DNA from: Streptomyces sp. CB02400
GTDB lineage: Bacteria; Actinomycetota; Actinomycetes; Streptomycetales; Streptomycetaceae
Assembly: GCF_001905725.1 (NCBI RefSeq)
Contig: NZ_LIWB01000007.1
Location: 62,001 to 126,000, forward strand
Reading direction: 5' to 3'
Length of the DNA stretch: 64,000 nucleotides
In this document: positions 20,557 to 35,961 of the stretch, piece by piece
Position numbering within the stretch: the stretch's first letter is position 1
Layout: each line of letters starts with the position of its first letter
Made by a program: the position numbers and the translations under genes
The notes under the pieces: generated by a model
Seen by the model: only the letters and a program-made list of their open reading frames with translations
What the model was told of the DNA's origin: nothing
Database searches by the model: none

Positions 20557-21531
20557 TCAGCGCCGGCGGTCGGCTGCCGAGGTGGCCAGTTCGGCGAGCC
20601 GGGTGGAGTTCGGCAGGCCGGTGAGTTCGGCGCGTGCCTGTTCGGCGTGGGAGGACGCCATCCGGGCCGCCTTGGTGAGTGCGCCGGTGCGTGTCAGCAC
20701 GGCGAGGATGTCCCGGTGTGCGGCGGCGGGGTCGGTGCCGCCACGGAACACGGTGGCCAGGCGGTCGCGGTCGGCCTCGTCGGCGACTTCGTAGGCGAGC
20801 AGGACGGGCAGGGTGGGTTGGAGGTTGGCGACGTCGCTGGTGGCTGTCTTGCCGGTGACCTGGTCCTCGGCGGTGTAGGGGAGCAGGTCGTCACGGATCT
20901 GGAAGGCCATGCCGAGCTGTTCTCCGTACTGGCGCAGGGCCTGGTGCTGCCGCGGGGTCGCCCCGGCCAGGATCGCCCCGGCCTGGCAGGCGGCGCCGGT
21001 CAGCGCGGCGGTCTTGGCCCGCATGACGTCCAGGACGGTCGGCACTCCGCAGGTCAGGTCGCCGCGGATCTCGATTTCGCGCATGATGCCCTGGCACATG
21101 TGCCGCAGGGCCTCGACGGCGACCCGTGCCGCGTGCAGCACACGTTCGGCGGGGCCTCCGCTGAGCAGGGCCGCGATACCGGCCATCGACAGTCCGTCGC
21201 CTGCGGCCAGGGCTTCGGCGAGGCCGTACTGCTCGGCGGTGGAGGCCCGCCCGCGGCGTACCGGGTCCTGGTCGATGATGTCGTCGTGGACGAGGCTGGC
21301 GACGTGCAGGCACTCGATGCCGGCCGCGAAAGCCAGCACCTGGTCGGTGGTGCCGCCGACGGCCTTGGCCGACTCCACGCACAGCACGGGGCGCAGGAGC
21401 TTGCCCGGAGGGAACAGCGCGTCCAGGCAGGCCAGCTCCAACAGGCTGTCACCACTGCCCACCCAGCGAAGCAGCTCGGCCTCCAGGAGCGGGACGTACG
21501 TGTCGCCGGCGGGGGTCACAGCAAGAGACAT
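20557..21531 (-). CDS. trans-polyprenyl diphosphate synthase
   Basis: 324-residue all-E prenyltransferase that condenses IPP with allylic diphosphates. The first aspartate-rich motif is LVHDDIIDQDPVRRG (D83, D84, D87). The second is FQIRDDLLPYT (D214, D215), where the last Asp of DDxxD is Pro218. The residue five before the first motif is the small Ala78, which by the known chain-length rule favours products longer than FPP, such as GGPP. It is the last gene of a minus-strand operon, 20 bp after the squalene/phytoene-synthase-like gene, to which it would feed substrate. The ATG at 21529-21531 gives MSLAVTPAGD. Confidence 0.93.
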   Translation of the reverse strand: MSLAVTPAGDTYVPLLEAELLRWVGSGDSLLELACLDALFPPGKLLRPVLCVESAKAVGGTTDQVLAFAAGIECLHVASLVHDDIIDQDPVRRGRASTAEQYGLAEALAAGDGLSMAGIAALLSGGPAERVLHAARVAVEALRHMCQGIMREIEIRGDLTCGVPTVLDVMRAKTAALTGAACQAGAILAGATPRQHQALRQYGEQLGMAFQIRDDLLPYTAEDQVTGKTATSDVANLQPTLPVLLAYEVADEADRDRLATVFRGGTDPAAAHRDILAVLTRTGALTKAARMASSHAEQARAELTGLPNSTRLAELATSAADRRR

Positions 21532-21551
21532 GGCCCGTTTCCTTCCACAGG

Positions 21552-22445
21552 TCAGCAGGGGATCACAGCCCGCATGAGGGGCCGCCACACGTTGAGCAGC
21601 GTGCCCAGGGGCGGCTGTACCGGTCGGTGGAGGACGTCCTGGCCTGCTGCCAGCACTGCGGCGACGATCAGGGTCATGTGCTCACGGTGGGCGTGCCAGA
21701 GGGCGCTCACAGGGCCGTGGTCCACTTCCCCGGCCTTGCGCAGTTGCCCGGTGACCCGCTCGGCCTCGAACGCGATGAGGTCGGCCGTGGCCGGTGTCCA
21801 ACGTTTCGCCTTGATGTCCTCGGCGCGCACCTGGAACCGGTCGAGATCCTCCAACGGCAGGTAGAGGCGCCCGTCGTCGAGGTCTTCCGACAGGTCGCGC
21901 AGCACATCCGTCAACTGCGCGAAGACGGAGAACTCACGCACCAGCAGCTCATCCGCGGGTCCGGTCACGGCACCCGTCACCCGGTAGAACATGGCCGTCG
22001 AGCCACCGGTCATCCGCATACACCACCGGCGCAGTTCCTCGAAGGTGACGAAGTCACGGAAGTCCAGGTCCCGCCGCATCGCACCGAACATGTCCTCGAC
22101 CACCGACAGCGGCATGCCGAAAGTCCGGTAGGTGTGGACCGTGGCGTGCAGTACGGGGTCGTGGGAGCCGTCGGCGTCGAAGGCCGTCCAGGTGGCCTCG
22201 ACAAAGTCGGTGAAGCGGCGTCGACGGTCTTCGACCGGGCCGCTGTCCACGCAGAGATCGGCACGGTACCCGTGTGCCAGCAGTGCCGCCGTATGAGGCC
22301 GAACCGCCGCGGGAGCGCTGCGCAGGCCGTGCCAGCGGGCGGTCCCTCCGTCGGCGCCGGCCAGCTCTCGTACGCACACCGTGTAGCAGTGCCGGAGGAC
22401 GGGATCGGTGATACCCGCGGCATCCAGCCATCGCCTTACCAGCAT
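21552..22445 (-). CDS. squalene/phytoene synthase family enzyme
   Basis: 297-residue head-to-head prenyl-coupling enzyme family (PF00494). Both acidic motifs are present: DLCVD at 63-67 and QLTDVLRDLSED around 178-188 (D180, D184, D188), followed by DGRLYLPLEDLDRF as in phytoene synthases. FGMPLSVVEDMFGAMRRDLD matches the central helix. The sequence diverges from ordinary CrtB and HpnC/D, so the product is unknown. AAAGGG precedes the ATG. It sits between an ABC exporter and a polyprenyl synthase, with no desaturase or cyclase nearby. Confidence 0.9.
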   Translation of the reverse strand: MLVRRWLDAAGITDPVLRHCYTVCVRELAGADGGTARWHGLRSAPAAVRPHTAALLAHGYRADLCVDSGPVEDRRRRFTDFVEATWTAFDADGSHDPVLHATVHTYRTFGMPLSVVEDMFGAMRRDLDFRDFVTFEELRRWCMRMTGGSTAMFYRVTGAVTGPADELLVREFSVFAQLTDVLRDLSEDLDDGRLYLPLEDLDRFQVRAEDIKAKRWTPATADLIAFEAERVTGQLRKAGEVDHGPVSALWHAHREHMTLIVAAVLAAGQDVLHRPVQPPLGTLLNVWRPLMRAVIPC

Positions 22446-22562
22446 CTGTGAGCCCTTTCTGCTCGACCGGTTCCCGTCGGCGCCAGGACCTCGCTCTGCG
22501 ACGAGGGCGCGGTGCGTCCCTCGTAGGGCGCCTTGTGAGCCGTCGTCCCACCGGGGCGTCGC

Positions 22563-23405
22563 TCAGCGAGGTGTCGACGTGGCTCTGGCCGGGCGCGCGG
22601 GTCGTCGGTGCCTGGGCGGCCAGGGCAGACGGAGGGGCGGCCGTGTGGTCAGGGCGTCTTTGGTGCGGCGGTGGAAGGCGAGCAGGCCCAGGAGTGCGGC
22701 GCCGGTGAACCACAGGATCTGGACGGCCAGGTCGCCGGGGAGCGGTCTGTGGGTGAAGCCCGCGGCGGTGGCGGCCTGCATGGTGCCGTAGGTGGGCAGG
22801 AGTTGCACGGCCACGCTTTTGGTACCGCCGCTGGCCAGGGGGCTTTGCAGGCCGACATCGACGAGGCTGGTCATGACCAGGGCGAACATGCCCTCCACCT
22901 CCCGGCGCAGCAGGGAGCCGAAGACGACGCCGAGCGCCCCGTAGGTCATCGCTCCGCAGAACAGGCCCGCGGCGAGCTGCACGGGCTGGTGCGGGCTCCA
23001 GGTGGTGCGGATCACCGCGGTGGCATAGGCGGCGATGGTGACGGAGGCCAGGGTGAGGGAGGTGGTCTTGGCCAGGACGAGATGGACACGGGGGTAGCCG
23101 GCCATGGCCAGGCGGCGGTCGAAGCGTCCGCCGTTGAACGTGACGGCGAACATCATGAACCCGGTGATCAGGGTGACGGCGTTGATGGCACCGGTGATCT
23201 GCGTGATCTGGTTGCCTGCCGGTGCCAGGAGCCGGCCGGTCGCCCGCAGTCTGAAGGTCACGGGCCTGTCGGGGATGACGGCGTGGGCCAGGCTGATCCA
23301 GGAGGGGATGAACAGGGCGACCAGGACCATGGCGAGCCTGTTGCGGGTGTGCTCGACCAGGTCGAAGCGGGCCGCGGTGACGAACAGACGCAGGTGCCGC
23401 CTCAC
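22563..23405 (-). CDS. ABC-2-type transporter permease
   Basis: 280-residue membrane protein with about six helices, for example LAMVLVALFIPSWISLAHAV, AVTLITGFMMFAVTFNGG and DLAVQILWFTGAALLGLLAF. The architecture is that of ABC-2 permeases, which export drugs, lipids or polysaccharides. The GTG at 23403-23405 overlaps the ATPase stop (GTGA), so it is translationally coupled to the ATPase. The gap to the next operon gene is 117 bp. It probably exports the isoprenoid made by the downstream enzymes; that is inference from context. Confidence 0.88.
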   Translation of the reverse strand: MRRHLRLFVTAARFDLVEHTRNRLAMVLVALFIPSWISLAHAVIPDRPVTFRLRATGRLLAPAGNQITQITGAINAVTLITGFMMFAVTFNGGRFDRRLAMAGYPRVHLVLAKTTSLTLASVTIAAYATAVIRTTWSPHQPVQLAAGLFCGAMTYGALGVVFGSLLRREVEGMFALVMTSLVDVGLQSPLASGGTKSVAVQLLPTYGTMQAATAAGFTHRPLPGDLAVQILWFTGAALLGLLAFHRRTKDALTTRPPLRLPWPPRHRRPARPARATSTPR

Positions 23406-24079
23406 GCCGGCACCGCCGTCACGGGGTGCAGGACTCCGCCCTGAAGCCGCCACAACTCGTCCAGGCGTTCGGCGTCGTAGGCCAGGTGCGAGACGACGAG
23501 GACGGAGCGGCCCGCATCACGCAGCCGTGCCGCCAGGTCCCAGAAGCGCTGGTAGGTGTCCCAGTCGAAACCCTGGTAGGGCTCGTCCAGCAGCAGCACC
23601 TGCGGGTCATGCATCAGCGCCAGGGTCAGGTTCAGCTTCTGACGGGTTCCGCCACTGAGCAGGCCGGCACGCTCATCGGCGTACTCCGACAAGGACAGCA
23701 CCTCCATGACCTCTCCGGCGTGCCGCAGATCCGGCAGCCTCCGCGCGACGCGGAAGAACTCCAGATGCTGCCGCACGGTCAGGGCGTCGTTGACGACCAC
23801 GTCCTGCGGGCAGTAGCCGAAACGGCCTCCATGGCGGACCGTGCCACGCTGCGGGCGCAGATCACCGGCAAGAATTTTCAGCAGCGTGGACTTGCCCGCA
23901 CCGTTCTCCCCGACGATGCCGGCCAGCACACCAGGCCGCAGGACAAGGTCCAAGCCTCGCAGTACCTCACGCCGACCGTACGCGTGACGCACGTTCCTGA
24001 CCTCCACCGCACCCCCAGGCTCGTAGACCGTGCCGCACGCTCTCTGCTGACCACTCGCCGTCACGGCAAGGCTAGGCAT
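23402..24079 (-). CDS. ABC transporter ATP-binding protein
   Basis: 225-residue ATPase. Walker A is GENGAGKST (57-65), the signature is LSGGT (141-145), Walker B is VLLLDEP (161-167), and the switch histidine is in VVSHLAYDAERLDELW. It starts at ATG 24077-24079 without a strong ribosome site, so a slightly later start cannot be excluded. It is the first gene of the operon with the ABC-2 permease, the phytoene-synthase-like enzyme and the polyprenyl synthase. It is a homodimeric energiser for that permease. Confidence 0.92.
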   Translation of the reverse strand: MPSLAVTASGQQRACGTVYEPGGAVEVRNVRHAYGRREVLRGLDLVLRPGVLAGIVGENGAGKSTLLKILAGDLRPQRGTVRHGGRFGYCPQDVVVNDALTVRQHLEFFRVARRLPDLRHAGEVMEVLSLSEYADERAGLLSGGTRQKLNLTLALMHDPQVLLLDEPYQGFDWDTYQRFWDLAARLRDAGRSVLVVSHLAYDAERLDELWRLQGGVLHPVTAVPA

Positions 24080-34845: not shown

Positions 34846-35961
34846 TCAGGACGTTGGTTTCACGGCGTCCTCGAAGGTGAGCTGCTGCGGGATCGTGTCG
34901 AGCGGCTTCGGTGGCTGGTCGAGCACGATGCGGTGGTCGCTGCCGGAGGTCCGGCTGATGGATGGCCGGCCTCCGAGCGCGGAGTGCGGGCGCTCGCGGT
35001 TGCAGTAGTTGAGGAAGTCCGCGAGCGCGGCCCTGCGTTCCTGCTCGGAGGTGTAGTCGCGCACGTAGGCCCACTCGCGGGCCAGCGTCCCGTTGAACCC
35101 CTCCGCCTTCCCGTTCGTCCGCGGCGTCTACGGCCTGGTGCGCTTGTGCTTCGTTCCCGTCACGACCAGGGTGGCGGCCCAGGCGCGGGAGCGGGAGCGG
35201 GAGCCGTTGTCGGTGAGGACGCGGCGGATCGGCGTGTTGTCGCGGCCGGCGAAGAACGCGACGGAACGATGCCAGAACGCGGCTGCGGCCACGGCCTTCT
35301 CGTCGTCCAGAGCCTCGGTGCGGGCGAGCCGGGAGTGGTCGTCGATCGCCGTGTGCAGGTACGTGCAGCCGGCCTTCCCGATGCCGGGACCGGCGCGCTT
35401 GGAGGCCCGTGCGGCTTCGGTGCCGCGGTCGTGCATCCGCCAGCCACCACCGGCGGGGATGCGACCGAGCTTCCTGACGTCGACGTGGACCAGGTCGCCG
35501 ACGCGGTCGTGCTCGTAGCGGACGACTTCGCGCGGTTGCTCGCCGGTGGGCGGATCGAGGTCGCGCAGGCGGCTGAGCCGTCGCCGGACGAGGACTCGGT
35601 GCACGGTGGCCGGTGCCACGGTGACGCCGTGCGGCCTCTCCAGTTCGGAGGCGAGCCGGGCGGGCCCGTACTCGGTCCGGCGCCGTAGCGCCTCTACCAG
35701 ATCTGCGATGTCCTCGCTCGTGCGGTTGGGGCTGGCGATGGGCCGGGAGGAACGATCCGTCAGGCCGCCCTCGCCGTAGGCGAGCCAGCGGGCGTACCAC
35801 TCGGCCAGGCAGCGGCGGGAGATTCCTGCTTCCGCAGCGACGTGTGCGATCGGAGGTCCGGCATCGACCCGCAGGCACAAGCGCAGACGTCCTTCGGGGG
35901 TCAGCGGTGCGTTCCGATGTCCCCTGCTGATGGCGCTCCTGGACTCGGCGGCCGCGTTCAC
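34846..35961 (-). mobile_element. IS481-family transposase with internal amber codon
   Basis: 371-codon transposase frame, complete except for one TAG at 35128-35130. The N-terminal helix-turn-helix reads RNAPLTPEGRLRLCLRVDAG. The rve-type catalytic core has DLVHVDVRKLGRIPAGGG and VLTDNGSRSRS. After the stop, the same frame continues TPRTNGKAEGFNGTLAREWA, and ends with ADFLNYCNRERPHSALGGRP. The family normally has RPYTPRTNGK, so TAC (Tyr) has become TAG. The catalytic Glu lies beyond the stop. GTG start at 35961. Clear terminal inverted repeats or target duplications were not found. Confidence 0.85.

Follow-up and report, generated by a model that had tools for sequence, protein, structure and literature searches.

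We analyzed a window of 64,000 nucleotides from Streptomyces sp. CB02400 (contig NZ_LIWB01000007.1, positions 62,001 to 126,000 of the forward strand), in which four adjacent genes at window positions 20557-24079 encode an ABC transporter ATPase, an ABC-2 type permease, an SQS-like enzyme of the PF00494 family and a trans-polyprenyl diphosphate synthase of the PF00348 family. The four genes form a real, conserved unit beyond chance, and exporters related to its ABC pair are linked to isoprenoid enzymes far above background. We lean, by a modest measure, towards the view that this is a self-contained cassette that both makes a single isoprenoid and exports it, with a one-donor reaction ending the chain.

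Observed directly are the genes present and their linkage, the families they belong to, the altered residues and the repeated occurrence of such exporters beside isoprenoid enzymes; from these we infer the chain length, reaction, product, transport and transport direction of the following pathway. The polyprenyl synthase would extend an allylic diphosphate with isopentenyl diphosphate (IPP) to an all-trans chain, and the SQS-like enzyme would ionise a single prenyl diphosphate in its aspartate-rich site. The pathway would then end in a one-donor reaction, in which the chain is either passed to a small nucleophile, as happens in phytoene-synthase-like prenyltransferases, or cyclised and quenched; two prenyl diphosphates would not be joined head to head, and the ABC-2 pair would move the hydrophobic product outward. 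A one-donor reaction (prenyl transfer or cyclisation) appears likelier than head-to-head coupling because an Arg and an Asn beside the aspartate motifs are lost in the whole clade of the SQS-like enzyme, as in LvqB4 and CqsB4, two carbazole prenyltransferases.

Conservation and layout of the cassette

The PF00494 protein was searched against 295 Streptomyces genomes (E up to 1e-30), and nine of them matched, the source genome included. The ATPase, permease and polyprenyl synthase lie near the SQS-like gene in all eight other matched genomes, and a search for nine further window genes (E up to 1e-4) recovered none of them from these eight relative stretches. S. pilosus, S. spinosus, S. iakyrus and Streptomyces sp. 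CoH27 came from a scan of named genomes, and locus L225 from a class-wide search. The total is 14 Streptomyces loci with the window counted, among which L024 and L032 are near-identical, and the named close relatives of the block belong to Streptomyces. A sequence-only reading of the window had treated the enzyme pair and the ABC pair as one unit, and their side-by-side position at these loci bears this out.

The arrangement varies among the copies. The enzymes come first at L026; L027 has a divergent polyprenyl synthase (31% identity) and, in between, a cis-prenyltransferase gene of the opposite strand; the start of the polyprenyl synthase in S. pilosus (L029) reads unlike that of other copies. 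Decaying copies were also found: the SQS-like gene is frameshifted at L025/L036, and in S. noursei (L035) it stands beside a polyprenyl synthase with the inner part missing, with no ABC pair within the stretch examined. SQS-like genes without a window-type exporter in the stretches examined (ORF, open reading frame, list only for the last two) occur at L037, L039, L045, L075 and L081. Two plasmid records matched by the SQS-like protein were inspected; one has no isoprenoid partner and the other is a carotenoid cluster.

The ratio of nonsynonymous to synonymous divergence (dN/dS), estimated by NG86, ranged from 0.10 to 0.42 over 20 pairwise gene comparisons with five relatives, and all four genes look to be under purifying selection. 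For the window against L021 and L022, dS of the SQS-like gene is 0.59, more than two times that of the permease and polyprenyl synthase genes (0.20-0.25), with the ATPase at 0.32-0.34. Since its dS exceeds that of the flanking cassette genes, these values suggest that the SQS-like gene has been swapped between cassette copies.

The minus strand carries all four ORFs, none of which has an internal stop. The ATPase (23402-24079) scores 93.7 bits with ABC_tran of Pfam and keeps its permease neighbor in relatives. The permease (22563-23405), with a score of 24.4 bits for ABC2_membrane_3 that is below the cut-off of 31.6, has six hydrophobic segments in its hydropathy profile and adjoins the ATPase, as in an ABC-2 type exporter. 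Its longest ORF extends to 23453 (22563-23453); because the span matched by the longer ORF contains an in-frame TGA in relatives G220 and G146, and because of the GTGA overlap with the ATPase stop, the start is probably GTG at 23405. The SQS-like gene (21552-22445) encodes 297 amino acids. The longest ORF of the polyprenyl synthase (20557-21531) extends to 21588 (20557-21588), and its start is probably ATG at 21531, 20 nt past the SQS-like stop. The four-gene, one-strand arrangement with overlapping ABC genes and both acidic motifs, as first read from the letters, was confirmed from the ORFs and Pfam, and the remark that no desaturase, cyclase or P450 is nearby holds among the ten ORFs scanned with Pfam.

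The two enzymes

The SQS-like enzyme belongs to the PF00494 superfamily (SQS_PSY 110.5 bits, Pfam cut-off 26) and lies far below the NCBIfam cut-offs for HpnD (96.7 against 278.6 bits), HpnC (74.9 against 250.45 bits) and the CrtB models (at most 57.9 against 480-550 bits). The source genome (8.93 Mb across 47 contigs) holds four PF00494 genes, of which the cassette one scores weakest. An adjacent pair on contig 2 passes the HpnD (304.2 bits) and HpnC (314.5 bits) cut-offs, and a gene on contig 6, near a polyprenyl synthase and named CrtB-like here, passes no cut-off. Because this paralogue also misses the CrtB cut-offs, it is the active-site residues that carry the weight in excluding CrtB.

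In a tree of 76 rows, the SQS-like enzyme clusters with LvqB4, CqsB4 and cis-prenyltransferase-fused domains in a 28-row group (95/99), and the three paralogues of the same genome fall outside this group. In a second tree, from which long rows were removed and to which two rows were added, the window clade holds (100/99), and the wider group containing it also holds the CrtB-like gene. On both trees the enzyme is firmly distinct from the HpnC, HpnD and CrtB-like genes of its own genome. It shares the Pfam family and fold with HpnC, HpnD and CrtB and differs from them in its scores under the cut-offs, its position and its active-site residues. The candidate role of a second HpnC, HpnD or CrtB was ruled out by the NCBIfam scores, the two trees and the separate paralogues; the enzyme was not placed in a CrtB or HpnD clade, just as the ABC genes were not found to part from the enzymes in relatives.

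Eight copies share the acidic motifs D63xxxD67 and D184xxED188 without change, and E187 is replaced by Lys in the S. noursei copy. Three further residues are numbered R45, N168 and R171 in what we take to be CrtM numbering. The Arg three before motif 1 (R45) is present in all 27 ordinary rows and in none of the window clade (0/12), the cis-prenyltransferase-fused group (0/8) or LvqB4/CqsB4 (0/2). The motif-2 Asn (N168) is kept in 26 of the 27 ordinary rows, the exception being the genome's own HpnC with Glu, and is Asp throughout the window clade (12/12), the fused group (8/8) and LvqB4/CqsB4 (2/2). R171 is Arg in 22/27 ordinary rows and Gln in five HpnC-like rows; the enzymes of L037 and L045 retain R45 only. 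The cassette enzyme, with no Arg before motif 1 and Asp in place of the motif-2 Asn, shows the residues of the phytoene-synthase-like (PSL) enzymes LvqB4 and CqsB4, and the double loss would mark an active site that no longer accommodates two prenyl diphosphates.

PSL prenyltransferases are described as a small family whose members add prenyl groups of C5 to C15 to carbazoles and to diketopiperazines of tryptophan, with NzsG and CqsB4 (PMC7466098), DmtC1 (PMC6173783), and NozPT, SazB-PT and GczB (PMC10156859) as members. The PF00494 fold and aspartate motifs of LvqB4 (7vws), CqsB4 (7vwt), NzsG, DmtC1 and NozPT are also found in the SQS-like enzyme, where the sequence comparison covers LvqB4 and CqsB4, and NzsG, DmtC1 and NozPT are likened by description. 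LvqB4 and CqsB4 have the Arg loss and Asn-to-Asp change in common with the cassette enzyme at about 22-26% identity and are its best sequence or Foldseek matches. The PDB sequence scores are 60.5 bits for LvqB4, 48.9 for a phytoene synthase and 48.7 for CqsB4, and Foldseek with the confident AlphaFold model (pLDDT 91.8) gave CqsB4 first (E 6.8e-11) and LvqB4 next (1.2e-10). Unlike PSL systems, the cassette shows no carbazole, diketopiperazine or other acceptor gene alongside, and it has a dedicated polyprenyl synthase and ABC pair instead.

The polyprenyl synthase scores 178.4 bits with polyprenyl_synt of Pfam (cut-off 27), and K48, R51 and H80 (alignment A3 numbering), which we take to be IPP-site residues, are invariant in nine copies. 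This combination of PF00348 score and IPP-site Lys, Arg and His is that of a trans-isoprenyl diphosphate synthase, and the enzyme can be read as chain-elongating. The residues ahead of DDIID are small (VASLVH), and small residues at this place would permit chains of C20 or longer. Its best PDB sequence match is Ord1 (9v4g, 148 bits), which has the polyprenyl synthase fold and in which, as in the cassette enzyme, the third Asp of motif 2 is absent. Ord1 is described as a farnesyltransferase acting on free tryptophan (PMC13290415). It has Gly and Gln at the positions of R51 and H80, respectively, and a role as an Ord1-like tryptophan prenyltransferase was rejected because these Gly and Gln are not present in the cassette enzyme. 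The model of the polyprenyl synthase is mediocre (pLDDT 69.9), so its VIA list was used for the name Ord1 only. The best NCBIfam match is Family 2 encapsulin cargo polyprenyl transferases at 203.5 bits, below the cut-off of 450, and encapsulin cargo was rejected on this score; no capsid gene was recognized among the ten ORFs scanned with Pfam.

Isoprenoid enzymes beside related exporters

At 1e-10, the permease matched 72 of the 295 genus genomes at 88 places, nine of which are window-type. We inspected 40 of the other 79 places, namely 29 of the 32 with about 56% identity or more (closer loci) and 11 of the 47 weaker ones, which were hand-picked. Gene calling relied on a simple GC-position rule, and the profiles used to find neighbor enzymes were built from few seeds, so that terpene synthases near the exporter may be missed. 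At 22 of the 40 loci (18/29 closer and 4/11 weaker) the ABC pair has an isoprenoid enzyme within 4 kb. Since the source genome holds 18 genes of four isoprenoid families (4 + 6 + 3 + 6 domains, one gene having two), linkage of about 0.02 (about 2%) is expected per locus, and the observed linkage is far above this background, with the proviso that loci of the same kind are related and the counts are not independent events. The isoprenoid ORFs of the 40 loci number 20 per 158 kb in the first 2 kb and 5 per 315 kb at 4-8 kb.

Of the 22 linked loci, eight have a PF00494-cis-prenyltransferase fusion and one a lone SQS-like gene. Six have a polyprenyl synthase (the four scanned are lipocalin-PF00348 fusions of about 770 amino acids), two a PF00348-terpene synthase fusion and one a lone terpene synthase; the remaining four carry one or two plain polyprenyl synthases each. 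In the class-wide sample the permease was found at 1e-20 in 25 of 394 genomes, and all 12 places outside the genus were inspected. An isoprenoid enzyme directly adjoins the ABC pair at nine of them: five polyprenyl synthases (four as ORFs of 766-850 amino acids; among three scanned, a lipocalin domain comes in under E 0.001 in two and clears its cut-off in one), three PF00348-terpene synthase fusions (one Pfam-scanned), and one PF00494-cis-prenyltransferase fusion forming a three-gene set with the ABC pair. Four of seven further same-genus places inspected, a subset of those from the class-wide search, have an isoprenoid enzyme within 4 kb. Seven plasmid records were also matched, and in the public annotation of the two inspected (NZ_CP109336.1 of S. 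canus and NZ_CP109497.1) a polyprenyl synthetase family protein adjoins the ABC pair. The proposed tie between ABC exporter and isoprenoid enzymes is seen in exporter relatives outside the window-type loci as well.

Because the fused relatives combine chain building and chain ending, the two enzymes of the window may likewise act in sequence on exporter cargo, and these fusions beside the exporter are, by analogy, the strongest hint of such sequential action. PF00494-PF01255 (cis-prenyltransferase) fusions beside the ABC pair, which occur in the genus and in another family, include L149:10507-12315, L143:10281-12110 and L224:10701-12407. A CrtC/lipocalin-like domain is fused to the polyprenyl synthase beside the ABC pair at L144:11078-13375, L153:6421-8733 and L213:11284-13581, and polyprenyl synthase-terpene synthase fusions are beside it at L164:6974-9217 and L222:10289-12337. 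No solved structural relative of the permease was found at E up to 1.

In the window, the cassette lies between a DEAD-box helicase gene and a divergent SUFU-domain gene. Two minus-strand ORFs at 34846-35961 resemble transposase pieces, as judged by eye. In titles and abstract openings of the open-licence PMC literature the four-gene set is undescribed, which is weak evidence of absence as subscription literature mostly lies outside this source; the claim that no known cluster has this composition agrees with it to the extent of this partial coverage. As far as the searches reach, the cassette is undescribed, and the kinds of enzyme and transporter in it are themselves known.

Competing explanations and implications

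Several observations weigh against the one-donor isoprenoid cassette. As to the enzyme, the R171 Arg is kept in four of the 12 window-clade rows (the window and its three nearest), the related L027 enzyme retains all three residues, and the joining with LvqB4 and CqsB4 in the first tree was not kept in the second, so that the sister relation to the carbazole enzymes is not firm. The top VIA-align entries are CrtM-like two-donor enzymes (Z 30.7, 2.1 A, 270 residues, 18% identity), with LvqB4 thirteenth (Z 28.7, 2.6 A, 290 residues, 26% identity), and the modelled fold does not by itself decide the reaction type. As to the exporter, 18 of the 40 genus loci are without an isoprenoid enzyme within 4 kb. 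Nine of the 29 closer loci have in its place a secreted-looking protein of 173-191 amino acids with no Pfam family, and eight of these nine also hold WS/DGAT-like and PfaD-like genes, as in a lipid-like cluster. The exporter family may export hydrophobic products more widely.

A rather unlikely alternative is that the SQS-like enzyme transfers its prenyl group to an aromatic acceptor, for example a tryptophan or indole derivative, synthesised by genes elsewhere in the genome, with the ABC pair exporting the hybrid. Such prenylation is described for NzsG, CqsB4, DmtC1 and NozPT, and the nocardioazine pathway is distributed over separate loci, according to the papers cited above (PMC7466098, PMC6173783, PMC10156859); LvqB4 is moreover the top PDB sequence match. 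However, no acceptor-making gene was seen in the cassette, which speaks against a plain aromatic prenyltransferase, or in the window-type stretches as far as annotated, and other exporter-linked modules hold terpene synthases, for which an acceptor is not needed.

It is more doubtful that the exporter family carries hydrophobic metabolites in general and that its linkage reflects ordinary clustering of specialised-metabolite genes instead of isoprenoid cargo. The loci with the secreted-looking protein and those without an isoprenoid enzyme favor this explanation, but linkage far above background, found with several unrelated enzyme architectures and in other families, and the concentration of isoprenoid ORFs in the first 2 kb argue against it. 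Among the nine secreted-protein loci, seven have a reductase-like gene and six a monooxygenase-like gene; two other closer loci have neither an isoprenoid enzyme nor the small protein. The protein (L145:10398-10916 and relatives; L023:11382-12050) was found in 15 of the 295 genomes, and in 12 of these it is no more than about 3 kb from a permease of this family; none was found in the source genome. It also follows the polyprenyl synthase at the window-type loci L023, L024 and L032, and is possibly a carrier for the exported product.

Head-to-head joining of two prenyl diphosphates from the polyprenyl synthase into a product of C30 or longer for ABC export, as the sequence-only reading had offered, is equally improbable: both aspartate motifs are intact, the fold is equally near CrtM-type enzymes (Z 29-31) and a dedicated polyprenyl synthase adjoins the gene, but the residue losses of the whole clade and the low HpnD, HpnC and CrtB scores leave this coupling unsupported. 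The interpretation given with that reading stands in part, in that the enzyme-ABC set is conserved and the enzyme is outside the HpnC, HpnD and CrtB-like genes.

On the most far-reaching reading, Actinobacteria may have a dedicated ABC-2 isoprenoid exporter family served by plug-in biosynthetic modules, in which the linked SQS-like proteins, sometimes fused to the cis-prenyltransferase providing their prenyl diphosphate, would be a further kind of one-donor enzyme ending terpenoid chains. We put this forward tentatively, as a possibility that falls short of an even chance. To our knowledge, bacterial terpenoid export is little known, and exporter relatives beside several kinds of isoprenoid enzyme hint at an overlooked route for it. 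The loss of two conserved residues offers a clear test of the one-donor and two-donor distinction in the PF00494 family, and new isoprenoid chemistry may be sought directly in the fused SQS-cis-prenyltransferase and lipocalin-polyprenyl synthase proteins. The wider exporter-enzyme association merits a full survey, and, if true, a transporter family marking isoprenoid modules would provide a search handle for pathways that resemble scattered single genes.

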